A stretch of 64,000 nucleotides of DNA from Bacteroidota bacterium (lineage in GTDB: Bacteria > Bacteroidota > Ignavibacteria > Palsa-1295): the NCBI GenBank assembly GCA_018266755.1, contig JAFDZW010000005.1, forward strand, positions 248,001-312,000. Reading direction: 5' to 3'. The position numbers were made by a program, and so were the translations under genes. The notes under the pieces were generated by a model, which worked only from the letters and a program-made list of their open reading frames with translations, was not told the DNA's origin and did not search any database. Of the stretch, positions 11,832-64,000 are shown piece after piece; the first letter of the stretch is position 1; each line of letters starts with the position of its first letter.

Positions 11832-12013
11832 TGTTGTTTACCTTTCATCAGCCGTCGCACACTTACGTCAGAGGGGGAGCCGGCGTGTAACCGTCTCGCT
11901 TCGGCGTAACACCGAAGTTACCTCCAAGCAGTGCCCAGCGGCGCTGGTGGAATGTACCCTGCGACCATCGCAGGTAATACCGTGAGGCTCCAGCGTGCCG
12001 GAACCGCACAAAG
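11832..12013. other. prs-rplY intergenic region with two small hairpins
   Basis: 182 bp without a plausible gene. It holds a CTTCGG/CCGAAG hairpin near 11898-11916 and a 7-bp hairpin CCTGCGA/TCGCAGG (11958-11974). Neither has a U-tract, so they look like leader or processing structures rather than terminators. Confidence 0.35.
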
Positions 12014-12943: not shown

Positions 12944-13025
12944 CGACGACGATCAATTAGGATCGCTGCACTTGTTGGCGACGGCAACACGCCGTTCGCT
13001 ACTGTGCAACAACACAGTTCAAACG

Positions 13026-13097
13026 CTGGGGTGGCAGGATTCGAACCTACGAATGGCGCCTCCAAAGGGCGCTGCCTTACCGCTTGGCGACACCCCA
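13026..13097 (-). tRNA. tRNA-Gln (anticodon UUG)
   Basis: Folded by eye on the minus strand: acceptor TGGGGTG/CACCCCA, discriminator G, anticodon stem GCGCC/GGCGC with loop CTTTGGA (anticodon TTG), T-loop GGTTCGAATCC. 72 nt, CCA not encoded. It precedes prs on the same strand. Confidence 0.95.
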
Positions 13098-13207
13098 ATT
13101 CAAGAAAGAATCAATAACGCGAGGGATAGATAGTCATCACTGTAACCACCGTGGATAAATGACTTGGAAACACCATTCATTCTCCACCACCCCTCGCTTA
13201 CCCATTC

Positions 13208-13831: not shown

Positions 13832-13880
13832 GGGCGCAAATATACGAGGACAAGCGATACCGCAATGTCGATCGGTCGGT

Positions 13881-14909
13881 TCAGCGAGCACGTCGCAACT
13901 TATTGTCAAGGGCGATGCTAAAGCTCACGCGGTGAGTGTTGCCGAGTTGGTCATCGGCGGAGAAACTCTGAAACGCGTAATCAAGTGAGAGTTTCGGCAG
14001 GTGGATGCCGACACCGAGCGTCAGAAGTTTTGTGTCGGTATATCCACCTCGAACAAAAACGATATTGCGGAATGCGTACTCGAGACCGGCATGCATGTCA
14101 GCGCTAATCGGCCCAACATGAACTTCGGAGACACTTCCGCGATTTTCAAATCGGAGATCGATATCTGCGACCGGCATAATGACGTGGGCACGATCGTCAA
14201 ACAGGTCCCACTGGTATGCTCCGCCGAGCTTCAGAGTGGGCGACACAAGTTCGCGGGTACCACTAGTATAGGAAAGCAGGGTTGTCGTAATATCTTGTCC
14301 GACCGCCGCGAGCATTAGTTGGTCCGATACGCGGTACCGCACCGCGGCATCGAACCCAATCCCCGTTGCCGAATTCTCCGGGTCGAGCTTCCGGACGATG
14401 AACTTCAGATTTGCCCCGTACGAAAGCGGCGAAGAATCCTGTTGGTGGCCGTACGAGAGATACACTCCCCAATCATAATTCCCGAACGTTGTGACTTTTG
14501 AGTAATCGAGATAATTCTCGCCGTCGAAGGTACCGCTCCCGGAGCGGTCGACAAATGCATTTCGCGTATCCTTGATGTCCGAGATTCCGATATGAAAGAC
14601 AGAGAGGGCTACACCGCTTGATTTCCCTAATGGAATGGCGATCGCGCCATAGTCGTACTTTACCGTATTGTCGAAACGGGCCTCGTGCATAGCCGAAATA
14701 TTCGGATAGGTAAGCGAAGACAATCCGGCAGGATTCCAATACCCCATCGTTGCATCGTCGACAAATGCAATGGCCGAACCTCCGAGCGCAAGGGAGCGAG
14801 CCCCCGCACCCAGTTGCAAGAATTCGCCACTATACGCACGAAAGCTCTGCGCTCGAACGGCGCAGCTTGCAACAAGTAGCAGCAGAATGGATAACGAACG
14901 AAATCTCAC
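13881..14909 (-). CDS. PorV/PorQ-family outer-membrane beta-barrel protein
   Basis: 342 aa from a GTG. Signal peptide MRFRSLSILLLLVASCAVRA, then the family opening LQLGAGARSLALGGSAIAFVDDATMGYWNPAGLSSL, which places a conserved NPA motif after a short Gly-rich lead. The remainder alternates beta strands (GVALSVFHIGISDI, YGANLKFIVRKL, AGLEYAFRNIVFVRGGYT) and ends in an aromatic-rich strand. In the T9SS, PorV shuttles cargo from the SprA translocon to the PorU protease. This protein belongs to the broader PorV/PorQ superfamily, and which member it is cannot be settled by eye. sprA and porU lie elsewhere in the window. Confidence 0.75.
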   Translation of the reverse strand: MRFRSLSILLLLVASCAVRAQSFRAYSGEFLQLGAGARSLALGGSAIAFVDDATMGYWNPAGLSSLTYPNISAMHEARFDNTVKYDYGAIAIPLGKSSGVALSVFHIGISDIKDTRNAFVDRSGSGTFDGENYLDYSKVTTFGNYDWGVYLSYGHQQDSSPLSYGANLKFIVRKLDPENSATGIGFDAAVRYRVSDQLMLAAVGQDITTTLLSYTSGTRELVSPTLKLGGAYQWDLFDDRAHVIMPVADIDLRFENRGSVSEVHVGPISADMHAGLEYAFRNIVFVRGGYTDTKLLTLGVGIHLPKLSLDYAFQSFSADDQLGNTHRVSFSIALDNKLRRAR

Positions 14910-17738: not shown

Positions 17739-19871
17739 TTAGTTTCTTGCGATGCGGAAGTCTTTGATCTTCGCGCTCGTCTTGAGATCTTCAAGCCACG
17801 AAGAGAAGAATCGTTGTTCCTTCTCTTTTGCCAAATTCTGGAAGAGTCCGGCTTTGTGCTTTTCATAGTCTTCCTTCTGGGTCGGCTGCATGCTCACAAG
17901 CTTTGCAATAAAGCACGCGCCTTGGCCTTTGACCGCAGGGGTGATCTCGCCAGGATTCTTCAGATTAAAGACGGCAGCATTGAGTTCGTACTCCGTACCG
18001 AGTTGCTGGGTTGACTCACCGGGGCCGGACGTTACGCGCTGAACGGTAAGGGTCGCATCCATCGCTGTAAGCTTCGAGAGATCGTCGTTCGGTCCGAGCG
18101 AATTGCGTAATTGCTGGGCATGAGCATAGACGGATTCGACCATCTTCTTCTTCGCAACCTGCGACTTGATCACACGCTTGAGCTCTTCATCGAGCGGACG
18201 TGCGCCCTTGGGAATATTCTCGACAACCTGGGCTACGACACTGATCCGTGCAGCAGAAATCTGCACCGGGACGGTGATGTCGCCGACCGACAGGTCAAAG
18301 ATATAGTACGCGAACGGCATATAGCCAAAGAGTGGCTGCGACCCGCGCAGCTGAACAAGCGGCGCATCGGTGATCACGCGCATATCCATATCCTTTGCCG
18401 CCTGATCGAAGCCCTTCTTTGTAGCCTGCTCACGGAAAATGGTCGCTTGCTGCTGGACCATCTTCGTTGTCTGAGAACTTGCCCGAATGTCGAGGTTCAC
18501 CGTTTGAACCGTCAACTTATGACTGGAACGGCCATTGAGCTGCATTATGATAAAGCCCATCGGTCCCTCGATGGGGCCAACAATACTCCCCACCGGCTCT
18601 TTGTTGACGACGCTCAGTACTTCGCTTGGAATCGTCTTCTCAGGCAACCAGCGCATGTCGCCGCCGGTACGTGCAGAAGGATCTTCAGAGTACTGACGAG
18701 CCATCTCGGCGAAATTCGCACCCGAGCGAAGTTGAGCGACTACTCGTTCTGCACGCGCCTTGGCACTATCGCGCTCCGCACCGGTCTTACCGACGCCCAT
18801 CACGATCTGCTTTGCATGTACGAGTTGTTCGCCGGTATCAGCGATCGAGATGACACGCATGACCTTCACCTGGCCCTGTGCCGTCGGACAGATCACGACA
18901 TCACCCGGCTTTGCAGCGAGGAGTGAATCGGCGTTGAGCACACTGCCGAGCGTCTTGAGATCGAGTGGAGCAGAATGAACGAACGGATCGTCGCTGTAAT
19001 CACGGGCGAGGTCGGCACCGGCACTGTCGCTCTCGGCAAGCGGCAATGACTGCCACCGCTTTGCAAGCGAACGGGCACGCTCGAATACGGACGCCGAATC
19101 TTTGGCGGTCGGAATATAGCGGAAGACCACGAACTTGATCTTTCGCGCTTCGTCCTGCTTATACTCCCACTTGTGGTTGTCGTAGTATGCCTTTACTTCG
19201 TCGTCGGTCACCTTCGAAACCATATCGTTGAACTGGTTCTGCGGCGGGACGATCTTGACGACATCAAAGGTTGCTTTCGCCGTCTGAATATCGTAGCGTT
19301 CCCACATCTCGTCATTGGTCAGACGGATGGTCGCAAGCAAAATGCTCTGGAGTTTCTCCCGCTTCATCGACTCGCGCATACGCTGGACATACGGGGTCAA
19401 GATGGTATCATACTTCGGATCGCGAAGAACCTGCCAATACTCCTGCTGATGGAAGCGGCCAGCAGAATCGACAAAACTGCGACGGATGTCATCCGGCGGA
19501 TTATAGAACATACGATCACGGACCTCCTGGTCGGTAACCGTGATGCCGTACTGAGTAAGCTTCTGGTCGATGAGCTTGGTCGTGAGCAGTTGATCCCACG
19601 CCTGCGAGTTGACTTCGGCTTCCTCGGCCTCGCTCAACGCGCTTTTCTTGGTTTCCGACAACTTCTGTTGACGCACCATCTGGAGCATGTCGTTGAACTC
19701 CTTATTGGAGATCGCCTGACCATTGACTTCTCCGATCTCATCTCCCTTCGGACCGCTGCGGAAGAAGTCTCCCTGGGCACCCCATTCGAAGACGATCATC
19801 AAGAGGAATGCGCCGGCAAGACCCGCGAATATCACGGTCATCTTTTCGCGCATTTTGTTCATTATTGCCAT
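17739..19871 (-). CDS. PpiD/SurA-like periplasmic peptidyl-prolyl isomerase
   Basis: 710 aa. A single N-terminal membrane anchor (KMTVIFAGLAGAFLLMIVFEW) is followed by a SurA_N/PpiD chaperone domain (GEVNGQAISNKEFNDMLQMV onward) and one recognisable parvulin domain (about residues 345-455; HAKQIVMGVGKT, FAEMARQYSEDPSARTGGDM, GPIEGPMGFIIMQL). Helical and second rotamase-like regions run to the C-terminus. PpiD proteins are inner-membrane chaperones that help fold proteins emerging from Sec, including outer-membrane proteins. This fits a window rich in outer-membrane barrels and T9SS cargo. Monocistronic, terminated by the shared palindrome. Confidence 0.88.
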   Translation of the reverse strand: MAIMNKMREKMTVIFAGLAGAFLLMIVFEWGAQGDFFRSGPKGDEIGEVNGQAISNKEFNDMLQMVRQQKLSETKKSALSEAEEAEVNSQAWDQLLTTKLIDQKLTQYGITVTDQEVRDRMFYNPPDDIRRSFVDSAGRFHQQEYWQVLRDPKYDTILTPYVQRMRESMKREKLQSILLATIRLTNDEMWERYDIQTAKATFDVVKIVPPQNQFNDMVSKVTDDEVKAYYDNHKWEYKQDEARKIKFVVFRYIPTAKDSASVFERARSLAKRWQSLPLAESDSAGADLARDYSDDPFVHSAPLDLKTLGSVLNADSLLAAKPGDVVICPTAQGQVKVMRVISIADTGEQLVHAKQIVMGVGKTGAERDSAKARAERVVAQLRSGANFAEMARQYSEDPSARTGGDMRWLPEKTIPSEVLSVVNKEPVGSIVGPIEGPMGFIIMQLNGRSSHKLTVQTVNLDIRASSQTTKMVQQQATIFREQATKKGFDQAAKDMDMRVITDAPLVQLRGSQPLFGYMPFAYYIFDLSVGDITVPVQISAARISVVAQVVENIPKGARPLDEELKRVIKSQVAKKKMVESVYAHAQQLRNSLGPNDDLSKLTAMDATLTVQRVTSGPGESTQQLGTEYELNAAVFNLKNPGEITPAVKGQGACFIAKLVSMQPTQKEDYEKHKAGLFQNLAKEKEQRFFSSWLEDLKTSAKIKDFRIARN

Positions 19872-50787: not shown

Positions 50788-52398
50788 CTACGAGGCTTTC
50801 TTAACCACGAACTCGACGCGGCGATTGGAAGCTCGCCCCTCGTCAGTATCGTTCGGAGCGATCGGATTTTCCGCCCCATAGCCTTTTGCAATAATCCGCC
50901 CCGGCTCGATTCCATGGTCGATGAGATATTTCCGGACGGCGTTCGCGCGTCGAAGCGATAGATCTCGATTCACCGCATCGCTACCAACATTATCAGTGTA
51001 ACCGGCGATCTCAACGCGCATCTTTGGGTTTGCCTTCATTATCCCGACTGCACGATCGAGCTCCGGCACCGACTCACCGCGAAGATCGTCCTTGCCGAAA
51101 TCAAAGAACACCAGCAACCGAACATGGCCATGAGTGGATGACTGCAGTTTGATATCGTGGTCTCCATCGAGAATACGACCTTGGTCATCCACCTCATAAT
51201 ATGCAGAGCCGAATAAGTACTTGTCGGCATCTGCCGTGACCGAGTACTTCCCTGGCCCGTCAACATCGACACTATACTTTCCGTCGGGGTCGGTCTTGGT
51301 CTTCTTGACAACTTTATTCTTCCCCAAATCAACCACGGTGACATTCGCCTTTACCGGATCGCCTGATTCGGCATCGGTCACCCGGCCGGATAACGTCGTC
51401 TTTTTTGTCTCGTGCGGGACAGCCGACTGGGTTTCGGACGGTGTAGATGTTTGCTGAGTCGCCCCGTCCTGCGGCTCGTATTGTGCCTGTTCTTCACGCG
51501 AGAGTGCACCAAACGGGATCTTCACGCCAATCGATGCCGATGCGTACCACAAACTTGGTGGTGTTGCGCTGGCGTAGGAAGGGTTGAAGGAGTTGTTCGA
51601 CGGGTATCCTGCTTTATACGCATCGACCTGATTGCTTGCAAGTACATTCGAAAGTGGAATTCCAATTGCAATTTCCGGCGTAAGTACCACGTTGCTTCCC
51701 CCAAGCCGAATGAACGTTCCAACTCCGATCTTGAGGTGAAGTTGAGAACTATTGAAATATCCGCTCGTCGATTGTTCAGGGATCGACAATGAAGTTTGTC
51801 CCGTTAATCCGCCGCTGGGCAGGGTCAGAAACTGACACCCGTTTGTCGAACTCACGATGGATTCTCCTCCTGAAAACTTGTTAGAGGACAACGAACTGTA
51901 CTCCAGTCCAACTGTCCCGTAAAAGCTTTCGGGGACGAACTGAATCCGTAGTCCGAGGTCACCCCCGAGGTAAGACAACGTCATGGAATAGTTACTTTCA
52001 AACGTTGCCGTCCCGGCAGATCCCCCGCTAACGTCGGAGCACGACGCTGTCTGCTGTTCCGTGGACGACGTATGATTCTGACGATAGAAGAACTTAGCCT
52101 GGATTGCAAGTAGATCCGAAAGTGCAAAATCGCCCGTGAGTGCAACATGGAAGCCGAGTCCGCTCCCGAGACTGTTGAAAGCAAGCGGAGCGATGACTGG
52201 GTTCGTTGGATCGTCGGAATATGGGTATGTATATGCCCAGAAGAAATTAGTACCTCCGGAGAGCCACGAGTCATTGAGTCCTATTTCCGCACCAATGTAG
52301 TGCCGAGAACTAATCAGCGACGGATCGCGCTGCGCGAAACTAATACTCGAAGCAATAGCAAGTAATACAAGCGCAAGGAATGGTCTGAGTAACTTCAT
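50788..52398 (-). CDS. OmpA-family outer-membrane protein with carboxypeptidase-regulatory domain
   Basis: 536 aa from the ATG at 52398; the frame is open 35 codons upstream without signal character. Signal peptide MKLLRPFLALVLLAIASSISFA. Residues ~25-310 are a beta-barrel of the PorV/outer-membrane type (SSRHYIGAEIGLNDSW, GFHVALTGDFALSDLLAIQAK). Residues ~345-435 form a carboxypeptidase-regulatory-like domain (LSGRVTDAESGDPVKANVTVVDLGKN). The C-terminal OmpA domain (~440-536) has LLVFFDFGKDDLRGESVPELDRA and the peptidoglycan-binding block VEIAGYTDNVGSDAVNRDLSLRRANAVRKYL. It likely anchors the outer membrane to peptidoglycan. Confidence 0.9.
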   Translation of the reverse strand: MKLLRPFLALVLLAIASSISFAQRDPSLISSRHYIGAEIGLNDSWLSGGTNFFWAYTYPYSDDPTNPVIAPLAFNSLGSGLGFHVALTGDFALSDLLAIQAKFFYRQNHTSSTEQQTASCSDVSGGSAGTATFESNYSMTLSYLGGDLGLRIQFVPESFYGTVGLEYSSLSSNKFSGGESIVSSTNGCQFLTLPSGGLTGQTSLSIPEQSTSGYFNSSQLHLKIGVGTFIRLGGSNVVLTPEIAIGIPLSNVLASNQVDAYKAGYPSNNSFNPSYASATPPSLWYASASIGVKIPFGALSREEQAQYEPQDGATQQTSTPSETQSAVPHETKKTTLSGRVTDAESGDPVKANVTVVDLGKNKVVKKTKTDPDGKYSVDVDGPGKYSVTADADKYLFGSAYYEVDDQGRILDGDHDIKLQSSTHGHVRLLVFFDFGKDDLRGESVPELDRAVGIMKANPKMRVEIAGYTDNVGSDAVNRDLSLRRANAVRKYLIDHGIEPGRIIAKGYGAENPIAPNDTDEGRASNRRVEFVVKKAS

Positions 52399-52509
52399 GG
52401 TGAAGGATATTGAATGTATACGCACAAAGATACTACTGCCGAAGATGAGCGAGGCAATTTCGAGCGGAACCCCGAAGGACAAAAATGTGTATTTATGCCG
52501 CACTTAGCT

Positions 52510-52584
52510 GGCGCGTTCGTCTAGCGGCTAGGACACGGCCCTCTCAAGGCCGCGACACGGGTTCGATTCCCGTACGCGCTACCA
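52510..52584 (+). tRNA. tRNA-Glu (anticodon CUC), integration target
   Basis: Acceptor GGCGCGT/ACGCGCT (first pair G-U), discriminator A, CCA encoded at 52582-52584. Anticodon stem CGGCC/GGCCG with loop CTCTCAA gives CTC. T-loop GGTTCGATTCC. The serine recombinase ORF on the other strand ends inside this gene, at the anticodon loop, making it the likely attachment site of the element that follows. Confidence 0.95.
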
Positions 52585-52590
52585 GATGAG
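52544..52590. other. Probable left attachment junction (tRNA-Glu 3' half)
   Basis: The 3' half of tRNA-Glu directly joins the recombinase coding sequence, and the composition changes here. A direct repeat of this segment would be expected at the other end of the element, outside the window. Exact core not determinable. Confidence 0.5.
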
Positions 52591-54118
52591 ACAAATTTAG
52601 GACATTTTCGTTTCCATCCGGTTCAACTCCCACTAACTCATTAATATTCGAAGAGATTAGCGTTAGTGCCCTGCTAACCGACTTGGTTCGATAGTTTTGC
52701 CCATCAAAAGTAAGTTTCTGCGGAAATATCGAACCAAGAATACGTTTCTTGATGTGCGAATTGCCAGCGGCAAAATACTCATGCAAGTGTGAGAGCATAT
52801 TTCTTGCCGGATCGGTGTACTGAGAAACATTTGCCCTCGCACCTTCAGCCTGCAACATGCTTTCGATTGAGACAATCTCATCTTTGAGCTTTCGACTCTG
52901 TCGATCATACGTGTCACGAGCTATCTGGTCACGAATCCACATTTCTTCCACTTTATCAAGCAAGGCCGCGGCTTTCTCCTTCTGTATCGCAAGTGTTCTC
53001 CTTTTTTGATCCTCGACTCTTGCCTTTTCTGACAGCTTCTTCGTAAGCAGATGGTCGTATAATCTAATCGCTCGTCTATCAATCACAATTGTTCTCAACA
53101 ATGCTTCAATTTGACCATGCAATTGACTTGCGGGAAAACGAGCGTTGCATCCAAATTGCTGTTGGCAATGATAGTACGCATAAGCTCCTCCATTCCCTTT
53201 TGAATAACTTCCCGTCAAGTTACGACCGCACTGCGGGCACAGCAGGATACCACGGAGATACAAATTCAAAGATTTCTCCGAGCGATTCAAGCCACGACCT
53301 CGTTTCTTCCGCTTTCCCAATACGGCTTGTGCGCTATCGTACAAGCTTTCCGGTACAATAGCTTCGTGCAATCCTTTGACTTCATAGGACGGATTATCTT
53401 GAAACGCATCAACTCTCACGAAGCCTTTATAGATTGGATTCGTAAACATCCGGTGGAATTGGGATTTGCTGATTAGCATTCCTTTCTTCCTCATCACTCG
53501 TCGGACTTCCTCCACCGTCGATGAACTCCGAGCAATCAACTCAAACGCTTCACGAACGAGACTCGCCTTGTCTGACGGCTGAATGACACCGCCTTTCCCA
53601 ACGAGTGCGTTCTTGTAACCGTATGGTGCGTTGGATACAAACCTTCCGCTTTTCAATGCCTGCTGGATACCAATTTTGGTATTGAGCGACCTGCGGCGAT
53701 TCTCAACTTCCGGAATTGTCGCGTTAATCATCTCAATAAGCAAGCTCTCAGGATTGTTGCCGTCAGTCGGTTGTTCAATCGCAACAAATTTTACCCCGAT
53801 GCTATTCAGCTGGTTCTGCATATTAAGACCTGCGGCTACATTCCGTGAAAATCTATCCCAGCGGACGCAGAGTACTTGAGTCACGTTTTCGTTCGAAATA
53901 ACGAAGTCGAGTAGCTTCCTGAATTCCGGACGATCTTCAAAGGTTTTTGCTGATGCTTTATCTTGAAAATGCCTTTTGACCAGCAGTCCATTATCTATAC
54001 AGTACTTCCGCAAGCGTTCCTCTTGCGCTTCCAACGAATGACCGTCACCTTGCTGTTTGGTCGATACGCGAGTATAAATAACTACATCAGCACCCTTGCG
54101 CATGATCGGTTTCTTCAT
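52544..54118 (-). CDS. Large serine recombinase (integrase) of a tRNA-Glu-linked element
   Basis: 524 aa. N-terminal resolvase domain with catalytic Ser19 in VIYTRVSTKQQG and VLCVRWDRFSRNVAAGLNMQ; a Recombinase domain (~170-275); a zinc ribbon with CPQCGRNLTG and a second Cys pair (YHCQQQFGCNARF); a coiled coil (~365-425). An AGGAAG ribosome site lies 8 bp before the ATG. The last ~14 codons (HLVARTGIEPVSRP) are antisense tRNA-Glu sequence, and the stop codon falls in the anticodon loop. The C-terminus is therefore contributed by the host chromosome, and the unintegrated form would end differently. First gene of the element. Confidence 0.93.
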   Translation of the reverse strand: MKKPIMRKGADVVIYTRVSTKQQGDGHSLEAQEERLRKYCIDNGLLVKRHFQDKASAKTFEDRPEFRKLLDFVISNENVTQVLCVRWDRFSRNVAAGLNMQNQLNSIGVKFVAIEQPTDGNNPESLLIEMINATIPEVENRRRSLNTKIGIQQALKSGRFVSNAPYGYKNALVGKGGVIQPSDKASLVREAFELIARSSSTVEEVRRVMRKKGMLISKSQFHRMFTNPIYKGFVRVDAFQDNPSYEVKGLHEAIVPESLYDSAQAVLGKRKKRGRGLNRSEKSLNLYLRGILLCPQCGRNLTGSYSKGNGGAYAYYHCQQQFGCNARFPASQLHGQIEALLRTIVIDRRAIRLYDHLLTKKLSEKARVEDQKRRTLAIQKEKAAALLDKVEEMWIRDQIARDTYDRQSRKLKDEIVSIESMLQAEGARANVSQYTDPARNMLSHLHEYFAAGNSHIKKRILGSIFPQKLTFDGQNYRTKSVSRALTLISSNINELVGVEPDGNENVLNLSHLVARTGIEPVSRP

Positions 54119-54195
54119 GGCTTTATCTTCCTTTCTGTCTGGGTAACAGCAATCCGCCCGGAACGGTTTTTAAACACGCCCGGTGCTTCACTCGA

Positions 54196-54396
54196 TCACG
54201 CATAGGTCGGATTGCCATCTCGCTCATCACCAAGCTCGATGGAATCAATAATCTCGATTTGGATTGCGAGAAGTGTGTCAAGAAAGGCACGAACCTCGTC
54301 GTCGTCTTCTTCACACAATTCGTCACCTATCCATAAAACCGATGCAAATTTGTCGGTGTTACCGTCTCCAGATGAAATCACGAATGTACTAAACAT
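54196..54396 (-). CDS. Small very acidic hypothetical protein
   Basis: 66 aa from the ATG at 54396, with a good Shine-Dalgarno AAGGTGAG 8 bp upstream. I count 17 Asp/Glu against 3 Lys/Arg, with a cluster at DELCEEDDDEVRAFLD. No known motif. It ends 77 bp before the recombinase start, on the same strand, so they are probably co-transcribed. Strong acidity is a feature of DNA-mimic anti-restriction and some regulatory proteins; the position would also suit a recombination directionality factor, though those are usually basic. Not confirmed as a gene. Confidence 0.45.
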   Translation of the reverse strand: MFSTFVISSGDGNTDKFASVLWIGDELCEEDDDEVRAFLDTLLAIQIEIIDSIELGDERDGNPTYA

Positions 54397-54730
54397 GCCG
54401 ACATCTCACCTTGAGATGCAAGCGATAATCGTTATGCGAAACCTGTCGGTCTCGCGTTAATTAATGTTTAGATTTTCGTCAAGCAGAACTTGACGTTCCA
54501 TTCATTTTTCATTTGTCCGTCCAGAACGGACGGCTTACGAACGAGGAAGTTCGCGTAAGGTAGGATTCGAGTGTCATGGTTTGGGATCACGCCCAAGAGC
54601 CGAATACTATGGAAACCATTCAGCCCAACCGCCGCTAAACCACTCGAACAGATTTGTGCTTAGCGACAAACACGCTAACAGTGCTCACTCAATATGGTTC
54701 CCTTGTTTGACTCTGCTCCGTGCAAGTCCA
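54397..54730. other. 334-bp intergenic region with two hairpins
   Basis: No convincing gene. It contains CCGTCC/GGACGG (54517-54533) and directly after it CTTACG/CGTAAG with an additional AAC/GTT stem and a 2-base bulge (about 54534-54559). Further downstream is unstructured to my eye. Possible promoter/operator of the recombinase operon, or a terminator zone for the restriction operon ending at 54731. Confidence 0.35.
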
Positions 54731-55432
54731 TTATGTTGCAACAGGCAGCGCGTTCAACTCTGCCCGGATTGACTTCCACTTCGGCAGGCGCTTATCCAAA
54801 TATTGTCGAAATGCGTCATTGTGTTTGCGCTCGATCAGGTGTAGAAGTTCGTGAGCGAGGACGTACTCAATGCAGCCGACTGGCTTCTTCGCGAGTTCAA
54901 GATTGATATTTATGCTCTTCAAATCAGGATTGCATGATCCCCATTTTGTCTTCATACTAACGACGCGATAGGATCGAGCATTGACCCCAATGATCCTCTC
55001 CCATTTTGATATCAATACTGCAAGCTCCTTCTTCAATTCGGCTCGATACCATTCCTTTAGGAGATCCGCTTTCTCTTCAACACCATCGTCAGACCTGACG
55101 AAGAGTTCGAGATATGACTTTCCGTGAATCCTGACTGCCCGATACCGATGCTCATCATTCGTCTCACGGACACGAAGCAAATATGGCCTTCCAAAGACAT
55201 AATGCGTTTCCCGATCAACATATTTCCGAGGCGATTGTCGATCTTGATTCGCACACTTCCTCCGCTGCTTTCGTATCCATGCAAGTTTCGAAGTCACGTA
55301 TAGCTCCAGCGTCTTACGGTTTACGTTTGCTGGCGCAGCCAATCTGACATGTCCGTCCGGAGGATACACCGCCAGATGAATGTTCTTGATATTTTTCTGG
55401 ACGATTTCAACAGAAATACCAGCGATAATCAT
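54731..55432 (-). CDS. YgjP-like zinc metallopeptidase (DUF45/M48-type) linked to type I RM
   Basis: 233 aa. The N-terminal half is beta-rich (IHLAVYPPDGHVRLAAPANV). The metal site is VLAHELLHLIERKHNDAF with HExxH and a downstream His. KTKWGSCNPDLKSININLELAKKP is the YgjP/WLM-family block, and KLAWIRKQRRK the conserved basic helix. Its ATG overlaps the hsdR stop (TAATG), so translation is coupled to hsdR. Proteases of this family often accompany hsdR genes; a role in limiting restriction damage is plausible but unproven. Confidence 0.9.
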   Translation of the reverse strand: MIIAGISVEIVQKNIKNIHLAVYPPDGHVRLAAPANVNRKTLELYVTSKLAWIRKQRRKCANQDRQSPRKYVDRETHYVFGRPYLLRVRETNDEHRYRAVRIHGKSYLELFVRSDDGVEEKADLLKEWYRAELKKELAVLISKWERIIGVNARSYRVVSMKTKWGSCNPDLKSININLELAKKPVGCIEYVLAHELLHLIERKHNDAFRQYLDKRLPKWKSIRAELNALPVAT

Positions 55433-58400
55433 TACATATACTCCCGCTGACTCTTGATGATTTCAAATATGGCATCTGCTTTTGCTTCATCATTAACATA
55501 TCTGCGGATGACACCTTTGACTTCTCTTTCCTTTAACGTATTGCCTATCCAATCATCCTTCTTCGTCTGCAGAATTTCGGCATCCAGCGCAAGTACGAGT
55601 GCAGACTGTTTGTCCAAATTATCATATAACGACATCTTGGCAGCAGTATCAATATCTTTTGGATAGTTGTGGTTGCCCTTCCCCGGATTGAGATCTCTGG
55701 CAATCGCTTCGATCTCCTTTAGGAACTGCTCATACTCAAGTGCCGATTCCTTCCTTCTACGGATCAATTCTTCGAGCAAGGTGCTCATCTTTTCGTAGTA
55801 GACCGGATTGATCGGCATTTCCTGCGTGATCACCTTGCGCATATTCGCTTCCAGTGTTTCGGCAACAGCTTCCTTGCTTTGCCTGATCACTTTTGGGAGC
55901 TTTTCACTCGCTGACTTTATTCCTTTCTCGACGATCAATTGGAGCAGTGTAGCATCACCGAAGTCCGACAGCGTTCTGCTGGGATCAGCGCTCAAATACA
56001 TATCCAACAACTGCCGCATTTCCGGTTCGTACTTTTTCAGGTCGATGTAATCGCCGCTGGCAGCTTTGATTGCATTTCTTAACTCGGCATATTCATCTAC
56101 CTGATGCTTGATTCTTGCAGCTTCAGCATCGGAGAATCCGGCATCAGACATCTCAGGAGCAATATTGTTGTAGGCTCGAATCGCACTTACGACAGCTTTA
56201 TAAAAGGTAAGCCGAGTTTCTTCCGTGTCCTTGAGCGCTTGCTTGTCGTCCGGATTGCCGCAGAAGTATCGGATATATTGTTCAATTTGCTTCGGTGGTT
56301 CTACAGGAGCACATAACTGATGAAGCACTTCGAGACTGTCCTCCATCCGTTCCTTTGCAACCAGCAGTCGGTTTAGCAGCAGTCCTTTGACATCCTCTTC
56401 TTCGAATTTGTCAAATGCATCGGATGTGTAGTCATCAATCGCGCCGTGTACGTTCTCAAAGAGATCCTTGTAATCGACGATATACCCAAATTCCTTATCT
56501 TCGTTCTCCGTCCGATTAACCCGGCAAATTGCTTGAAACAGGCCATGATCGCGCATTTGTTTATCAATGTACAGATACGTACAAGATGGCGCATCGAATC
56601 CGGTCAATAGCTTATCCACGACGATCAGCAATTGCATATTTGCTGGTTCATCTATGAACTGCTTCTTTACGTCTCTTTCAAAGGTTTCTCGATCTTTGCC
56701 GTTGAGCATCCGCTGGTAGATCTCATACTGTTCGATCTTCTCTGTGTCACCTTCACCTGTCGTTTCACCTTTGATGCTTGTCGTTGTCGGCTCGTACGAT
56801 GTCACAATTGCACAATTCTTAAAGCCGAAGTTCTGGAAGATCTCAAAGTATCTGCAGGCTTCGAAGATGCTTCCGCTGACCAGCATAGCATTGCCACGAC
56901 CATTGCGCAGCCGTGGCTTTATTTTGAAGTCCTTGATAATGTCGAAAGCGATCTTCTGCAGGCGTTCCTTCGTGCTGAGGATCTTCTGCATCGTTCCCCA
57001 TTTCTGTTTGAGTTCGGCCTTTGGAAGATCGTTCATGCCTTTGGTCACGACCTCGAACCATTCGTCGATGCCTTTCTGATCGTTCGCATGCTGATCCACA
57101 TCTCTGGCTTCGTAAAGAAGATCGAGCACTACACCATCTTGAACAGCTTCATCAAACTTATAGGTATGGATGTACTTCCCAAAGATCTCGATGCTCTTCC
57201 GCTTATCTGCCTTCAAAAGCGGTGTCCCGGTAAAACCGATGAACAGTGCATCCGGCAAGAGATCCTTCATCGCTTCATGGAGCGCTCCGCTCTGTGTTCG
57301 ATGACATTCATCAATGAAGACGAACAGGTTGCCTTTCGGAGCAAAATCCTTCGGTTTGTGCAGCTGCTCCACATATTCATCAATGTCCAACTCGTCGTTG
57401 CGTCCGAACTTATGAATAAGACTACAGATTAGCCACGGTGTTGTATCGTTCAGACGATTTATCAGATCCTGACCGCTCTTTGTCCGATAGATCTTCTCGT
57501 CTACGCCGCTGAACACCTTCTCAATTTGGTCATCAAGTTCTGTCCTATCTGTTATGATCAACAGTCGTGCATCCCTATGATGCTCTCGAATCCATTTCGC
57601 AAACCAAACCATCGTTAAGCTCTTGCCGGAGCCTTGTGTATGCCATATGATGCCACCTTGACGTTTAGCGACCGATTCCTGAGCTTTCTTTACCCCGAAG
57701 TACTGATTTGGTCGGCATAGCTTCTTAATGCCAGCATCGAAGACCACGAAGTCATGAATGATCTCCAATAATCGGCGCTTGTCACAGAACTGTAACAATT
57801 GCTGGTCGAGCAGGCTTCGATCTGGATCATATGAATAGCCGTCTTCCTTCCATTTGAGAAAGTACTTTTCGGATGTCTTTGTCGTTCCGTAGTATAAGCC
57901 TTGAGCATCATTCCCAGCAAGAACTACCTGAATTGTCGTGAAAAACGGCTTGATGAATCGGTGTTCTTGATTGTCGAGGTTCTGTCTGATGCCTTCGCTG
58001 ACCAACACACTTGCTCGTTTCAACTCCAGAACACCGAGAGCGATGCCATTGACGTATATGACGATGTCCGGGCGTTTGGTATTTACGCCAGCTACCGTAA
58101 CTTCTTCGGCGAATGAGAATTCATTCTGCTCCGGATTATTCCAGTCGATCAATCGCACGGTCTGATCGAATTCGCCGACAGATTCCTTGACCGCGATACC
58201 GTATCGAAGTAACGAGTAGACCGCCTTGTTGACCGGGTAAAGATCTTCGTTGGGATTGATCGTGGCGCTCTTCTGAAGCTCATAGAGTGCTTTTCCGATG
58301 GTCACATCGGAGTATTCACCATTCTTGCGAAGAAAAGTCTCCAGATCAGCCTGCCGGATATTTGAGTTATCTCGATCTTCGAGATTGCCAAGATAGGAAT

Positions 58401-58461
58401 ATCCAAGCTGCGATCTTAGCAGGTCTACGACTCGATCCTGTGTAACGCGTTCGTTGCGCAT
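55432..58461 (-). CDS. hsdR: Type I restriction enzyme, R subunit
   Basis: 1009 aa. N-terminal PD-(D/E)xK nuclease domain (DIVIYVNGIALGVLELKRAS, about 130-155), then a superfamily 2 translocase: Walker A HTQGSGKSLTMVWFAKW (~280), DECH box FVFIDECHRTQSG (~385), motif III FIGFTGTPL, and the second RecA domain with VDKLLTGFDAPSCTYLY and FQAICRVNR. A helical C-domain binds the MTase. It cuts unmodified DNA after ATP-driven translocation. Transcribed after hsdS (38 bp gap) and coupled to the metallopeptidase. Confidence 0.96.
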   Translation of the reverse strand: MRNERVTQDRVVDLLRSQLGYSYLGNLEDRDNSNIRQADLETFLRKNGEYSDVTIGKALYELQKSATINPNEDLYPVNKAVYSLLRYGIAVKESVGEFDQTVRLIDWNNPEQNEFSFAEEVTVAGVNTKRPDIVIYVNGIALGVLELKRASVLVSEGIRQNLDNQEHRFIKPFFTTIQVVLAGNDAQGLYYGTTKTSEKYFLKWKEDGYSYDPDRSLLDQQLLQFCDKRRLLEIIHDFVVFDAGIKKLCRPNQYFGVKKAQESVAKRQGGIIWHTQGSGKSLTMVWFAKWIREHHRDARLLIITDRTELDDQIEKVFSGVDEKIYRTKSGQDLINRLNDTTPWLICSLIHKFGRNDELDIDEYVEQLHKPKDFAPKGNLFVFIDECHRTQSGALHEAMKDLLPDALFIGFTGTPLLKADKRKSIEIFGKYIHTYKFDEAVQDGVVLDLLYEARDVDQHANDQKGIDEWFEVVTKGMNDLPKAELKQKWGTMQKILSTKERLQKIAFDIIKDFKIKPRLRNGRGNAMLVSGSIFEACRYFEIFQNFGFKNCAIVTSYEPTTTSIKGETTGEGDTEKIEQYEIYQRMLNGKDRETFERDVKKQFIDEPANMQLLIVVDKLLTGFDAPSCTYLYIDKQMRDHGLFQAICRVNRTENEDKEFGYIVDYKDLFENVHGAIDDYTSDAFDKFEEEDVKGLLLNRLLVAKERMEDSLEVLHQLCAPVEPPKQIEQYIRYFCGNPDDKQALKDTEETRLTFYKAVVSAIRAYNNIAPEMSDAGFSDAEAARIKHQVDEYAELRNAIKAASGDYIDLKKYEPEMRQLLDMYLSADPSRTLSDFGDATLLQLIVEKGIKSASEKLPKVIRQSKEAVAETLEANMRKVITQEMPINPVYYEKMSTLLEELIRRRKESALEYEQFLKEIEAIARDLNPGKGNHNYPKDIDTAAKMSLYDNLDKQSALVLALDAEILQTKKDDWIGNTLKEREVKGVIRRYVNDEAKADAIFEIIKSQREYM

Positions 58462-58499
58462 GAGCTAATGGGTTATGACGGATATTCCTGTCGGCATCG

Positions 58500-59762
58500 T
58501 CAAATTAAGCGGATCTGTCCTGTAAGGAGAACTTGCATCATTGCCTGTTTAAGTGCGATGTATTTGGAGAGAAGTAATTGGTGCGCTGTCAAGTCCTCGT
58601 CCATTTTCTTAAGAGAATCGGCAATTGCTGTTTGCTCTATTTTCGTTGGAGGCAAGATAATGCAGATCTCCCTGAGATGCCTTGCACTTATGTGTACTAC
58701 TGCATCACCTTGTCCCATCCTCGCTTTCTGTCGTACGACTGGAAAGCAGTTGAGTTGGAAACCGAGGAACAATGAATCCACATCTGTGCCCGGTCTAAGA
58801 ATAACAATGTCTCCTCCGGCATATGCTTCCTCATCAGAAACGATTGCGACACATTTCCCGATTTCAGCGGCTGTCTCACCCGATCCAGCAAATAGCAGGT
58901 CTCCTTGACGAAGAGCCGTACTTTGGGAGGCAGCATTTCGACCGATGAATGATTCGAACCTCTTTACATACTCATTGTGCGTCGTATAGATCTCACCATA
59001 TCTGATGCATCCCAAACCACTATCGCGGACTTCATCCCTTCTAATGCCGCTCCCCTTCAGAAATGACCCAATATCTCCAATTGTACATTTCACCCACGGC
59101 TCTTTGAACCCCGGCAATCTTCTCTTCCCCGTCAGCAAATCCTGCATCGCTCCCTGTTTGATCTGCTTCTTTTTTTCGATCAGTTGTTCAAGATTCTGGA
59201 TCAGGTCATCAATATCCGTAAGTGCGGTGGCAATGGCAGTTTGTTCAGTCACTTCAGGCACTGGTAGACTTATTGAGCCAATTTGCCCGAAATTTAGTCC
59301 TTGTCGATTGCCACCAGCTTGAAAACTTTCGATCTGTCTCTGCCCATTCTGGGAAAGCAGGACGTAACACAAATAACCGGGGTCGAGACGCTTGGGATCA
59401 ACTCGAATAATACAAACATGTTGATTCACATTTCCACCAACTACTAATGACGTTGCAACGGCCGCTCGTCCGATGGAGGCTCCCGTAATATTTAGCAGCA
59501 CGTCACCCACATGCAACTCTGTCGAATCGAAGGTATGGTGCGTCTTATCGTCAATGAAAGCCACTCCATCAAGCAAGAGCTTTCCCCAATCAACGTTCTG
59601 AGAGCGGAGAAATACACGCCCATAGGGCTTATATACTCTTGATCCTCCACGCGGAGTGATGCCACTACCAATCTTGACGGTTAACTCGTTCAGGGTTTCT
59701 ACTCTCCAATTCGGATAACCCTGTTCATTTTTTCCATTTCGACGCAGATTGTCTACTCCCAT
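58500..59762 (-). CDS. hsdS: Type I restriction enzyme, specificity subunit
   Basis: 420 aa with two target-recognition domains. TRD1 (~15-175; WRVETLNELTVKIGSGITP) is followed by the first conserved helical repeat (EQTAIATALTDIDDLIQNLEQLIEKKK, then QGAMQDLLTGKRRLPGF). TRD2 (~220-370; WVKCTIGDIGSFLKGSGI) is followed by the second repeat (EQTAIADSLKKMDEDLTAHQ, QAMMQVLLTGQIRLI). The parallel repeats confirm a full bipartite subunit. Its ATG overlaps the hsdM stop by 10 bp. The recognition sequence cannot be read from the protein. Confidence 0.95.
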   Translation of the reverse strand: MGVDNLRRNGKNEQGYPNWRVETLNELTVKIGSGITPRGGSRVYKPYGRVFLRSQNVDWGKLLLDGVAFIDDKTHHTFDSTELHVGDVLLNITGASIGRAAVATSLVVGGNVNQHVCIIRVDPKRLDPGYLCYVLLSQNGQRQIESFQAGGNRQGLNFGQIGSISLPVPEVTEQTAIATALTDIDDLIQNLEQLIEKKKQIKQGAMQDLLTGKRRLPGFKEPWVKCTIGDIGSFLKGSGIRRDEVRDSGLGCIRYGEIYTTHNEYVKRFESFIGRNAASQSTALRQGDLLFAGSGETAAEIGKCVAIVSDEEAYAGGDIVILRPGTDVDSLFLGFQLNCFPVVRQKARMGQGDAVVHISARHLREICIILPPTKIEQTAIADSLKKMDEDLTAHQLLLSKYIALKQAMMQVLLTGQIRLI

Positions 59763-62167
59763 TTGAACCCCATCCTTCTAAGATGTGCATTTACCTTTTC
59801 TTCAAGCACGGCTACACTCTCGTTCAATTGGGGCAAAGGCGTTTCATATCGCTCGACAAGTTCTCTGATTCGATTAGTCAGGCGCTGACTGACACGCTCC
59901 ATTTCCGACTTAATTGATGACTCCATTGCAGTCATCCATTTGTGATCGACTACCAGCGTCTTAATATCGTCAGCAGTCAGTTTGCGGTACTGTAGAAATG
60001 CCTGCCTGCTCAGTTCTTCTGAAGCTTCCTTTATGGCAATACCTAAAGCTGTCTGCTCTGTAGTGAGTTTGAGATAAAGGGTAAGAATCTCAATCTCTTC
60101 TTTCGAACTCCGATCCTTGCCAATTTCCTTCAATCGCTTCGATACCGATCCCTTGTTTACTTTCTCAAAATCGGCGAACCATCCGTCTTCACCACTATTA
60201 TCTTCTTCTAACTCCGTCAACTGGGCTTTAATGGCATCTTCGGCTGCTTCCATCTTCGCCATTGCATCCCGCTCGTTCGCAAAATGCTGCTCGACGATAA
60301 GACTTGGTGGTACGAGATCGCACGTCCAGCCTTTATCAACTTCTGCTCCCTTCTTGTTTCTTTCGGTGATCCTACGCGGTTCTGCCTTCCAACCGTCCCC
60401 AGCAATGAGATAGCAATCGTCCTGCATCGTCTCTTTCCAATAATCCAAAAGATATTGGTATATATCATAACGGTCGAGCAAAGGCTTGTCCGTGTAAGTT
60501 TGGAGCAGATCTTCAGCAATCTCGGCGATTACTTCTTTTGGTTTGCAGCCTTTCGATAGCTGTTTGAGATACTTAGTATTTGTCTTCCGCCACTTCGCAA
60601 ATAGCTGATCCATCTCCGAAGTGAATGCGACGAAATCCGGATGCGTGAATATCGTCTCCTTGATCTTGTCCTTCTGGATCTTTGACACTACATACCCGGC
60701 TCTTGTACTTTTGCCGAACAGATGCTTGCGCAAGCTCGGATACGCACTCCAATAATTGCTGAGAGCATCAATGTCCGAAACAGGAATGTCACCGAGCAAA
60801 TGGGCTTCGATGTCCTGAATGTCTTCCGGTTCTTGACTGTCAATGTATCGTGGAATGTTCAGATTATAGTCGTTCTTTGGATCTGCAATTTCCTCATTCT
60901 TTACAAAGCGGCTGTACTTAGGAATCTCGATCTGCTTATTGAAGACATCGACGGTCTTGTGAATGTCTTGCTCACGGAGTCGATTCTTGTTGCCGTCTTT
61001 GACAAAGCCTTTACTTGCATCAATCATGAAGATGCCTTCCCGCTTCTCTGCATCTTCCTTGTCGAGAACGATGATGCAGGCCGGGATGCCAGTGCCGTAG
61101 AATAGATTGGAGGGAAGTCCGATAATGCCTTTTATCAAGCCGCGTTTGATGACATTCTTTCTGATCTCTCCTTCGGTATTGCCTCGGAAAAGTACACCAT
61201 GCGGAAGAATGACTGCTCCTTTCCCGTTCTGGTTCAGAGATCTAACGATGTGAAGGAAAAACGCATAATCTCCATTCTTATCCGGCGGAATGCCAAACCC
61301 GGTGAAGCGCTCGTGTATGTCTTCAGCAGGATTAAATCCTTGTGTCCAATTCTTTAGCGAGAAAGGTGGATTTGCAACCACGAAGTCGAATGTCTTCAGA
61401 TTGCCACGGTTGTCTTCAAATTGCGGATTGGACAGAGTACTTTGACCTTTGGCAATCAATGCCGTGTCATTGTTGTGCAGGATCATGTTCATTTTTGCAA
61501 GCGCTGCCGTTGCACCTTCCTTCTCCTGACCATAAAGCGATAGCTTTTTCTCGCTTTCGGCAGCGGCCCGGAGAAGCAATGATCCAGATCCGCAAGTAGG
61601 GTCATAAATGGTTTGCGTACCGCTCGTAGCTCGATTGATGCCGATAACCTTTGCGATGATCCGACTGACCTCGGCTGGCGTATAGAACTGACCTTTGCTC
61701 TTTCCAGATTCGGTTGCAAAATGACGCATCAAGTATTCGTATGCGTCACCGAGAATATCATCGCCTTCCGCCCTATTGCTGCGAAAGTCAAGTTCTGGTT
61801 TTTCGAAGATGGCGACGAGTTCGCTTAACCGATCAATCTTTTCCTTGCCTGAACCAAGTTTTTCGTCGTCGTTGAAACTGACGACATCAATGAATCCCTG
61901 AAGATCGTTTGCTTTCGCGATTGCACCAATGGAAGTGTTGATCTTTTCTCCGATCTCTTTGTGTCCTTTTAGCGCGGCGATGTCGCTGAAGCTGCATCCC
62001 TTCGGAACTTCGATCAACGTATCCTTTGAACCAGCTTTATCAGATACATACTTCAGAAAAAGCATCACCAGTACGTAATCCTTATACTGGCTGGCATCCA
62101 TCCCGCCGCGTAATGCATCACAACTCGCCCAGAGAGAACTGTATAATTCAGACTTCTTGATTGCCAT
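59753..62167 (-). CDS. hsdM: Type I restriction enzyme, adenine methyltransferase subunit (long form)
   Basis: 804 aa. HsdM_N helical domain (~1-130), then the N6-adenine MTase: SAM motif I TIYDPTCGSGSLLLRAAA (~188), catalytic NPPF in FDFVVANPPFSLKNW (~270), and the KGAVILPHGVLFRGNTEGEIR block. The classical subunit is near 500-550 aa; here ~300 extra residues follow, rich in charged helices (FTSEMDQLFAKWRKTNTKYL, RLTNRIRELVERYETPLPQL). The long form exists in a known HsdM subgroup. It methylates host DNA with HsdS. First gene of the hsdM-hsdS-hsdR-protease operon. Confidence 0.95.
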   Translation of the reverse strand: MAIKKSELYSSLWASCDALRGGMDASQYKDYVLVMLFLKYVSDKAGSKDTLIEVPKGCSFSDIAALKGHKEIGEKINTSIGAIAKANDLQGFIDVVSFNDDEKLGSGKEKIDRLSELVAIFEKPELDFRSNRAEGDDILGDAYEYLMRHFATESGKSKGQFYTPAEVSRIIAKVIGINRATSGTQTIYDPTCGSGSLLLRAAAESEKKLSLYGQEKEGATAALAKMNMILHNNDTALIAKGQSTLSNPQFEDNRGNLKTFDFVVANPPFSLKNWTQGFNPAEDIHERFTGFGIPPDKNGDYAFFLHIVRSLNQNGKGAVILPHGVLFRGNTEGEIRKNVIKRGLIKGIIGLPSNLFYGTGIPACIIVLDKEDAEKREGIFMIDASKGFVKDGNKNRLREQDIHKTVDVFNKQIEIPKYSRFVKNEEIADPKNDYNLNIPRYIDSQEPEDIQDIEAHLLGDIPVSDIDALSNYWSAYPSLRKHLFGKSTRAGYVVSKIQKDKIKETIFTHPDFVAFTSEMDQLFAKWRKTNTKYLKQLSKGCKPKEVIAEIAEDLLQTYTDKPLLDRYDIYQYLLDYWKETMQDDCYLIAGDGWKAEPRRITERNKKGAEVDKGWTCDLVPPSLIVEQHFANERDAMAKMEAAEDAIKAQLTELEEDNSGEDGWFADFEKVNKGSVSKRLKEIGKDRSSKEEIEILTLYLKLTTEQTALGIAIKEASEELSRQAFLQYRKLTADDIKTLVVDHKWMTAMESSIKSEMERVSQRLTNRIRELVERYETPLPQLNESVAVLEEKVNAHLRRMGFKWE

Positions 62168-62508
62168 AAACTGACTTCAATTGACATTGACCGCGCCACA
62201 AGTACAAAACGTGCTCAGAAACGATGTAGCAGCCACGTTTCAATCCGGCTACTCAATGCGCATGTGTACAAAAATAGTCAATTGATCAGGCTAACAGTTT
62301 GATCTGTGGAGAACAACGGTCTTCAAAGGATACCGGGTATGCAGGTTCATCGCTTTAACCATATCTCGTCGGTGCGAATTACAGCTTCGCGTCCAATCCC
62401 AGTGACTTGTCAACAGGCCAGAAGTTCTATGTGACTATTGAAAAGGCTTCAGCGAAAATGAAATCGCTGGGAATGCCGTTATAACTGTTGCCGGATTCGC
62501 AGATACGT
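62168..62508. other. 341-bp region upstream of hsdM with a coding-like relic
   Basis: It probably holds the hsdM promoter. On the plus strand, 62357-62482 is open and reads like protein (NYSFASNPSDLSTGQ, KFYVTIEKASAKMKSLGMPL, then TAA) but has no start codon, so it may be a decayed gene end left by an earlier rearrangement. Nothing else seen. Confidence 0.3.
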
Positions 62509-62976
62509 TCAGGCTGTCGAGGTGGCTTTGTCGTGCTGGTAATAGCGCTCCGCACCAACCCAAGATCCACCCTTCTTATTGAGCTTGGGTTCGGATACCG
62601 AGATGGCAATTGCTTCTAAGTGATTGAGAATTGTATCAAGATTCTCATTGACGGTCTGCGGAGCGTCTTTCAGTGTATTGGAGCTATTAACTATTCGGAC
62701 TCCGAACCATGAGAAATAGCGCCAGCGATTCTGCAGATCATCATCCAAATGCTGCTTCAGGCGCGAAAACAGCTTCTGTGTCTGTGAACCGACCTGTCCT
62801 ACGTAGACAAGATTGAAAGATGGGTCATATAGGGCATAGATTGCGGCTTGTTCTCGAAAGTCGACTGGGTGTAACTTATCTCCATCAAGGTACCCTTTCA
62901 AAGATCCAATTTTGTTCTGCCAACCCCAGTCGACTTTCTGGATGTCCCAAAATAGTCCGTAATTGCGAATTATCAT
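62509..62976 (-). CDS. GIY-YIG nuclease family protein
   Basis: 155 aa. The GIY-YIG core is AIYALYDPSFNLVYVGQVG (~45-63), followed by the catalytic-Arg helix LFSRLKQHLDDDL and the metal-binding Glu in LDTILNHLEAIAISV; the Asn/Lys tail EPKLNKKGG is typical. A ~40-residue N-terminal segment (YGLFWDIQKVDWGWQNKIGS) is family-specific. Stand-alone members occur in defence and mobile loci. It starts 38 bp after the Mrr-like gene ends, same strand, so the two are likely co-transcribed. Confidence 0.85.
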   Translation of the reverse strand: MIIRNYGLFWDIQKVDWGWQNKIGSLKGYLDGDKLHPVDFREQAAIYALYDPSFNLVYVGQVGSQTQKLFSRLKQHLDDDLQNRWRYFSWFGVRIVNSSNTLKDAPQTVNENLDTILNHLEAIAISVSEPKLNKKGGSWVGAERYYQHDKATSTA

Positions 62977-63013
62977 GATGCTCAGTATTGTGGTAAATGC
63001 AATTGATCAGTGG

Positions 63014-63931
63014 TCACTCTTCCCCAAAATAGTCACCGTCGATCTTCTTAAGCTCGTACTTCTGCTGAGGAACAACGCCGACATTGTACTCGATCATCAA
63101 TTGAGCGAGTTGCTTGCCATCAATAAGAACGATCTTAGTATCATTCCGCGGCGCATATTCGACCGCAGTATCTGCAAAACGGCTTGTCGTAATGAATATG
63201 CCTTTCTTTGCTCCTTGACCAGCCAATGCTCCTACAAATCGTTGAATTTCAGGACGACCTACGGTAGATTCCGGTTTCCACCGTTTTGCCTGAATGTATA
63301 TGGCATCCAAGCCCAATTTGTCTTCTTTAATGATTCCGTCAATGCCTTCATCATTTGTCTTGCCGATTGCTCTTCCTGCATCACCAATAGAACCACCGTA
63401 GCCCATTGCAACGACCAGTTCGACGACCAAATGCTCAAAGGCTTCCGGAGTTATAGACAGAACTCGACTTAAAAGTTCTTGAGCCAGAGAGTCATTTATT
63501 GCTTGATATGCCGATTCAAGCTGCTCTACGGGCGTTCTTAGAGTTTCAGTCTCGTCCGAAAGGATTGCGTGATTCGGTTCGCCTTTCTTGGCAGTTTCGA
63601 ACTCGACGAACTCTGGGAATTGTCGCAAGAACTTGACATTGATTTGGTCTTTGTGCGTTTCCAAAATGTTCTTTCCACGCGGCGTAATGACGACAACTGA
63701 CCGACGTGGCCGATTAACAAGTCCAGCTTTCTTGAGAAAGGTTATCGCCCATCCTATTCGGTTATCAAAAACAAATTGCTTCCCACTGGGAAGAAGGATG
63801 GCTCGGTCATCGCTTGATATGTTCAGTTTTGCAGCGACCAAATCCCGAATCTCCCGGAAAGAGTATTCTCTTCCATCGGATAGTTGATCAAGAACTGGCG
63901 ACATTACTGCTTGGAAATCTGGTAGAGCCAT
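63014..63931 (-). CDS. mrr: Mrr-type restriction endonuclease
   Basis: 305 aa. N-terminal winged-helix Mrr_N domain (~1-110; LSDGREYSFREIRDLVAAKL, GWAITFLKKAGLVNRPRRSV). C-terminal Mrr_cat domain (~150-285) of the PD-(D/E)xK fold: FEHLVVELVVAMGYGG, NDEGIDGIIKEDKLGLDAI with the catalytic Asp, YIQAKRW with the Gln-x-Lys pair, and GIFITTSRFADTAVEYA. Mrr cleaves DNA with foreign methylation (type IV). It heads the visible operon with the GIY-YIG gene. Further element genes should lie beyond the window. Confidence 0.93.
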   Translation of the reverse strand: MALPDFQAVMSPVLDQLSDGREYSFREIRDLVAAKLNISSDDRAILLPSGKQFVFDNRIGWAITFLKKAGLVNRPRRSVVVITPRGKNILETHKDQINVKFLRQFPEFVEFETAKKGEPNHAILSDETETLRTPVEQLESAYQAINDSLAQELLSRVLSITPEAFEHLVVELVVAMGYGGSIGDAGRAIGKTNDEGIDGIIKEDKLGLDAIYIQAKRWKPESTVGRPEIQRFVGALAGQGAKKGIFITTSRFADTAVEYAPRNDTKIVLIDGKQLAQLMIEYNVGVVPQQKYELKKIDGDYFGEE

Positions 63932-64000
63932 ACATTATTAAGTCCTTGAGATATTCAAAAATACTATTATCCGCGACAATCTCAGCAGAAACCGTCTACG

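Follow-up and report, generated by a model that had tools for sequence, protein, structure and literature searches.

Two C-terminal ends of a large serine integrase gene that overlaps tRNA-Glu in Bacteroidota

The integrases of phage Mx8 and of the fusellovirus SSV are of the tyrosine type. In both, attP lies inside int, and integration alters (Mx8 IntP) or splits (SSV) the integrase, as cited in PMC4383910. Dehalococcoides has a CcrB-like large serine recombinase, DsiB, whose gene always overlaps attL at the 3' end and lacks a stop within the island; its authors suggested that the enzyme is perhaps fully functional only in the circle (PMC3146451). Serine recombinases acting at the 3' ends of tRNA genes were described as rare, with Ralstonia phage phiRSM1 (tRNA-Ser) and the Mycobacterium AICEs (tRNA-Leu) as examples (PMC3218068), and in 2015 the Islander report knew only tyrosine integrases to target tRNA genes (PMC4383910). 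In mycobacteriophage BPs, attP lies in the repressor gene, and integration yields a shorter C-terminus and an activity that depends on the state, the long form being tagged for degradation (PMC4557955). Engineered integrase-RDF fusions demonstrated that a C-terminal fusion to a serine integrase can set the direction of recombination (PMC5737554). The Riemerella islands were set aside as a precedent, their integrase being described as a tyrosine recombinase. For the Bacteroidota clade analyzed here, no paper was found in the part of the literature that was covered.

The integrase gene and the boundaries of the element

The window, that is, the whole stretch of 64,000 nucleotides that was analyzed (C5:248001-312000), belongs to a 3.5-Mb genome (G000). 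The features at the integrase end of the element are as follows.

50788..52503, minus strand: chromosomal left flank, OmpA-family gene (Pfam OmpA), which adjoins tRNA-Glu also in G002, G004 and G006
52510..52584, plus strand: intact tRNA-Glu(CTC) (ARAGORN)
52544..54118, minus strand: large serine integrase gene, integrated form, 524 aa (ORF translation, Pfam)
52561..52566, plus strand: T-loop hexamer GTTCGA at 11 bp from the core, proposed as the zinc-domain motif in the attB half of attL
52578..52582, plus strand: attL core GCTAC (comparison of attL, attR and empty sites)
52578..64000 and on to C5:345004 outside the window, no strand: integrated element, GC 46% (GC, empty sites, att comparison)

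The 524-aa open reading frame runs from 54118 to 52544 on the minus strand and meets no stop before the tRNA, and its final 41 bp (52544-52584) are antisense to tRNA-Glu. Its last codons, CTG GTA GCG CGT ACG GGA ATC GAA CCC GTG TCG CGG CCT TGA, are the antisense of the 3' half of the tRNA and translate as LVARTGIEPVSRP, with the TGA within the anticodon loop; the integrated-form protein ends HLVARTGIEPVSRP. A preliminary description of this DNA had the frame entering antisense tRNA-Glu and stopping in the anticodon loop, and the open reading frame, ARAGORN and the codons all agree with it, but the start coordinate that it gave, 52510, is that of the tRNA rather than of the overlap. Pfam found Resolvase (PF00239, 2e-28), Recombinase (PF07508) and Zn_ribbon_recom (PF13408) on the 524-aa protein in that order, a domain content that assigns it to the large serine recombinases. 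The columns of the catalytic domain are invariant across the integrase clade in our alignment. Antisense tRNA often translates as RTGIEPV or DSNLRP, and a single open frame in antisense tRNA is cheap by itself. The antisense-tRNA ending exceeds chance because the arrangement recurs in relatives, as described below.

At tRNA-Glu the GC content drops from 53% to 46%, and it goes back up near C5:345000, with a small lipoprotein gene to the right of this far jump. In the relatives G002 and G004, the OmpA gene, tRNA-Glu and the lipoprotein gene are contiguous in identical order. Because these two genomes keep empty sites, we took the element to be the DNA between tRNA-Glu and the lipoprotein gene. 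The GC jump and the empty sites together located the far end, which the preliminary description had left to be sought, about 44.4 kb from tRNA-Glu, and this is the total length of the element. The tRNA-Glu is intact at one end of the element, which restored its 3' end. The second copy of the GCTAC core (attR) lies outside the window at C5:345000-345004 (L003:17000-17004), and attL and attR are identical in this 5-bp core only. No displaced tRNA fragment of useful length was present at the far end, and no repeat longer than 5 bp was found in 118 kb. The preliminary description had expected the 3' half of the tRNA to be repeated there and took a missing repeat to speak against its reading; since a 5-bp shared core without a long tRNA repeat is normal for a serine integrase, that argument does not apply.

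The rebuilt attB, GCGCTACTACCA, is identical to the empty site of G004; written around the core, the two are CCCGTACGC[GCTAC]TACCAACC and CCCGTACGC[GCTAC]TACCACTGC, respectively. At C5:344978-345004 the GC jump, the arrangement GTTCGA-N16-GCTAC and the sole six-frame match to the tail pattern described below coincide; this pattern occurred nowhere else in the surrounding 118 kb in six frames, and shuffling expects 0.1 occurrences. Empty-site synteny fixes the boundary to about 150 bp around the called far end. A loose search for attR by 6-mers gave matches only within int and conserved genes. With CTACCA, our first choice of core, the motif was shifted by 8 bp and the circle form had 555 aa; this core was replaced by GCTAC because the shift is then 5 bp, the G004 empty site matches and the frame is unchanged (554 aa). 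A crossover within the T-loop (GGTTCGAT, common to attL and attR) was rejected because the empty site would then be without a functional tRNA, and the GTTCGA common to attL and attR would be better explained as a binding motif than as the crossover. It could still be argued that the far end is misplaced, owing to another boundary or a rearrangement after insertion, in which case the 554-aa form would be wrong here even if true for the clade. The sharing of only 5 bp, with no long repeat of the tRNA 3' half, would fit such an error, but empty-site synteny, motif spacing, the in-frame tail, the similarity of the G006 arm and the GC jump all coincide at this end, and we consider a misplaced end very improbable.

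The cargo genes of the element are listed here.

54731..55432, minus strand: YgjP-like metallopeptidase (Pfam)
55432..62167, minus strand: type I restriction-modification genes hsdR, hsdS and hsdM
63014..63931, minus strand: Mrr-type (type IV) restriction enzyme
Window 55432-63931; L002:4655-5854, 11683-14715 and 18460-19719; L003:13256-15921: defence and right-end genes of the element

By this content the element is a defence island, with type I restriction-modification, Mrr, a DrmC-like PLD protein, a PDC-S54 candidate and an SMC-like ATPase. Its right end carries a phage O-type replication protein and a DnaB-type helicase-primase.

The circular form and its recurrence in relatives

Joining the right end to the left reconstructs attP as ...GTTCGATAATAGTGTCGTCAAG[GCTAC]CAGATGAGACAAATTT..., with the predicted circle junction GTGTCGTCAAG[GCTAC]CAGATGAG, also given as GTGTCGTCAAGGCTACCAGATGAG. 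In the reconstructed circle, the integrase frame crosses the core into the other attP arm and reaches 554 aa in total, ending HLVALTTLLSNQFQAELRDLSELNEICKKDPLEERTDPSSASNL before the stop (abbreviated HLVALTTLLSNQFQAELRDL...). The last residues common to the 524- and 554-aa forms are HLVA, and integration replaces the remainder by RTGIEPVSRP. The int coding sequence spans the crossover, and its product differs between the two DNA states, both in this reconstruction and in real attP copies of relatives.

We propose that the element uses its large serine integrase to insert itself at the tRNA-Glu 3' end and that attP lies within the last part of int. The sequence shows that, in the circle as reconstructed, this gene passes the crossover into the second attP arm, which encodes a native C-terminal tail. 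Integration strands the code for this tail at attR, 44 kb off, and substitutes the tRNA-antisense peptide with its stop, and the element at the same time restores the 3' end of the tRNA.

Among 90 relatives (31-40% identity), 63 have an integrase stop that falls within an intact antisense tRNA or past it, at nine tRNA identities. These 90 are 80 named genome loci and 10 viral contigs retrieved by an alignment query; scans of viral and genome contigs with a single protein gave no match. In a separate phylum-wide search, where the relatives reached 39% identity, 20 of 29 loci ended in antisense tRNA, at seven tRNA identities. Dozens of related elements across Bacteroidota have the same arrangement, which is clade-wide and not the property of one odd element. 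Targeting of tRNA genes, held in the preliminary description to be unusual for large serine integrases, is usual within this large clade, as the 63 of 90 show. An independent element at the same tRNA-Glu in G006 has an attP arm similar to that of G000, and its frame continues likewise.

Some relatives carry the junction as real DNA. G041 is a single contig whose element sits at tRNA-Glu(TTC). Inside this element the reconstructed circle junction is present in inverted orientation, with 0 mismatches over 1273 nt; the integrase is 556 aa there and 531 aa at the tRNA. In addition, three pairs of near-identical integrases diverge only past the core, one member having a tRNA tail and the other a native tail.

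L230/L251: 94% identity, tRNA tail vs native tail
L263/L249: 84% identity, tRNA tail vs native tail
L280/L283: 92% identity up to the core, both in one Flavobacterium genome

Clade integrases also occur in pairs 17-46 kb apart in G688, G689 and G690 (L274, L276, L278, L279, L282, L283). In G688 and G690, about 45 kb separate a native-tail integrase from another that sits at a tRNA and has the same orientation. The two integrases of G689 also share their orientation, but they are 17 kb apart, and no intact tRNA was found adjoining the second. These pairs may be tandem arrays with attP as the inner junction. The preliminary description had supposed that the integrated and circular forms differ in their C-termini, and its proposal was to reconstruct attP and read the end of the integrase in the circle, which gave 554 aa against the 524 aa of the integrated form. 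Because attR is located and both empty sites and real attP copies exist in relatives, we take the two state-dependent tails to be real. For the clade as a whole, the two-tail structure appears almost certain.

Several other arrangements were seen among the relatives. In G085 (127 bp; L073:15796-17497) and G041 (more than 1.2 kb; L057:4108-5300), the 3' end of the integrase gene is repeated nearby in inverted orientation, with a junction that resembles attP, and inversion between such copies could swap the tail. Decayed copies of the 5' part of the tRNA lie upstream of the intact tRNA in G345 (L061:111 and 177), G085 (L073:15594-15700) and G009 (L026:1633-1655), and are perhaps remnants of earlier insertions.

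A second, more distant group at tRNA-Asn was found in G176 (L070/L071) and G061 (L072), where integration severs a helix-turn-helix domain of about 120-130 aa. The severed domain is 45% identical between the two, its matches to Pfam HTH families are weak, and no match to it was found in phage or plasmid records. In the single contig of G345, a second integrase copy, which is frameshifted, ends in such a fusion as real DNA (L062:1983-2621); this HTH-bearing junction replaced our first guess for that genome. Two attR sites follow one another in G061, and the helix-turn-helix domain at the first of them is a frameshifted copy.

The T-loop motif and the conservation of the native tail

GTTCGA lies 11 bp from the core in attB, that is, in the tRNA, and 16 bp from it in attP. 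In 7 of 8 attB/attP pairs from the clade, attP has the motif exactly 5 bp farther out, with a single mismatch in one of the seven. The short core of G000 was positioned with this shift in view, whereas the two natural pairs are free of such a choice. The exception is G526, itself a doubtful eighth pair; the guessed far ends of G307 and of most loose candidates were unreliable and were excluded. Rutherford et al. reported that the zinc-domain motif of serine integrases is 5 bp farther out in attP than in attB (PMC3783163), and the clade likewise has a short core and a zinc-domain motif with this displacement. We infer that the zinc domain recognises the near-universal T-loop GTTCGA, which is 5 bp nearer to the crossover in attB than in attP. 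Recognition of the T-loop would explain the use of so many tRNAs, and the offset would mark attB and attP as different while making many tRNAs usable. The attP arm would then serve as a binding site and encode the native tail at the same time.

The pattern SNxFxx[DE]LxxL is common to native tails from elements that occupy different tRNAs. Over the ten codons past GTTCGA, the integrase frame had a mean BLOSUM62 score of 1.53, compared with -0.45 and -0.49 for the other frames, although this figure is inflated because the motif itself served to retrieve the tails of G501, G558b and G495a and to flag L249. The score was reached by 0 of 5000 shuffles, and third codon positions were the most variable. 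Tails chosen without the motif (G000, G006, G679, G558a and L251) also carry it, L251 only loosely; in G526, whose candidate attR was located through a 12-bp core, the tail lacks it. Because the GTTCGA site encodes S-N, conservation of these two residues may be a DNA effect. An AlphaFold model of L251 (mean pLDDT 85) is confident for the recombinase body but not for the linker, and it ends in a short helix, the native tail being modelled at low confidence. The native tail is apparently under selection, and its conservation shows only that the tail matters in the attP state.

These data bear on the possibility that the exchange of tails is a neutral by-product: attP must be near int and here lies inside it, and the tail would be dispensable in both states, its exchange having no regulatory effect. 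The integrated tails are arbitrary, arising from nine tRNA identities and ranging from 0 to about 100 residues, which suggests that the short form tolerates any tail; the native tail is predicted to be flexible, and part of its conservation may reflect the GTTCGA binding site. On the other hand, the native tail is conserved past the binding site, in the coding frame only and with third codon positions most variable, and the second group loses a whole helix-turn-helix domain that two elements share at 45% identity. We regard neutrality as a serious possibility that nevertheless falls short of being probable.

Possible roles of the tails and comparison with known systems

Since each DNA state encodes only its own enzyme, a new circle would make the long form and an integrated element the short form. 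The native tail would most likely be needed at the integration step, and its loss might help to keep the integrated state or bias the short enzyme towards excision with a partner factor. Taken together, the explanation, with attP inside the integrase gene, exchange of the tail, recognition of the T-loop and a native tail for integration, is in our judgment probable. That the two tails form a directional switch is a more tentative proposal. Equally tentative is its specific form, in which the attP-encoded tail, with its conserved helix or helix-turn-helix, would be required for attP x attB recombination, and its replacement by the tRNA-antisense peptide would make integration self-terminating.

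A switch could also work in the opposite sense, the native tail inhibiting the integrase of the circle, for example for low copy number or timing, and integration freeing a shorter, more active enzyme that excises. Phage BPs follows this logic, its short prophage form being more active than the long viral form (PMC4557955). A tail that hinders the sole integrating enzyme would, however, be selected against, and no degradation tag was seen at the tail ends. We therefore consider inhibition by the native tail unlikely, and return to the reading in which the tail serves integration.

If the exchange of tails does control direction, it would be a natural counterpart of the engineered integrase-RDF fusions and a ready-made one-way tool. 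Genome-mining pipelines take integrases from integrated elements, and in this clade they would obtain the wrong C-terminus and enzymes that may be less active. In contrast to the Islander report and to the 2011 survey that described such cases as rare (PMC3218068), tRNA targeting is the norm for one clade of serine integrases in a sample from one phylum; the reason that we propose is recognition by the zinc domain of a T-loop common to almost all tRNAs.

The engineered fusions are artificial, whereas here recombination itself swaps the C-terminus, and the tail is not a known RDF. BPs shares attP within a gene and a shorter integrated product, but its gene is a repressor and ours an integrase. 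The targets of phiRSM1 and the AICEs are of the same type as here; a change in the integrase C-terminus is unreported for them in PMC3218068. The closest precedents for a state-dependent integrase tail are DsiB and Mx8 IntP. Mx8 and SSV share attP within int, and the present element has a serine integrase with a 5-bp core instead. No second recombinase adjoins int here and the target is tRNA-Glu, which sets the element apart from the DsiB/CcrB family, as DsiB acts with a second recombinase, DsiA, on ssrA and with a long direct repeat. DsiB is like our integrase in being a large serine recombinase at the 3' end of an RNA gene (tmRNA), and the tail of the attP state, the conserved motif and the zinc-domain shift described here extend what was reported for it.
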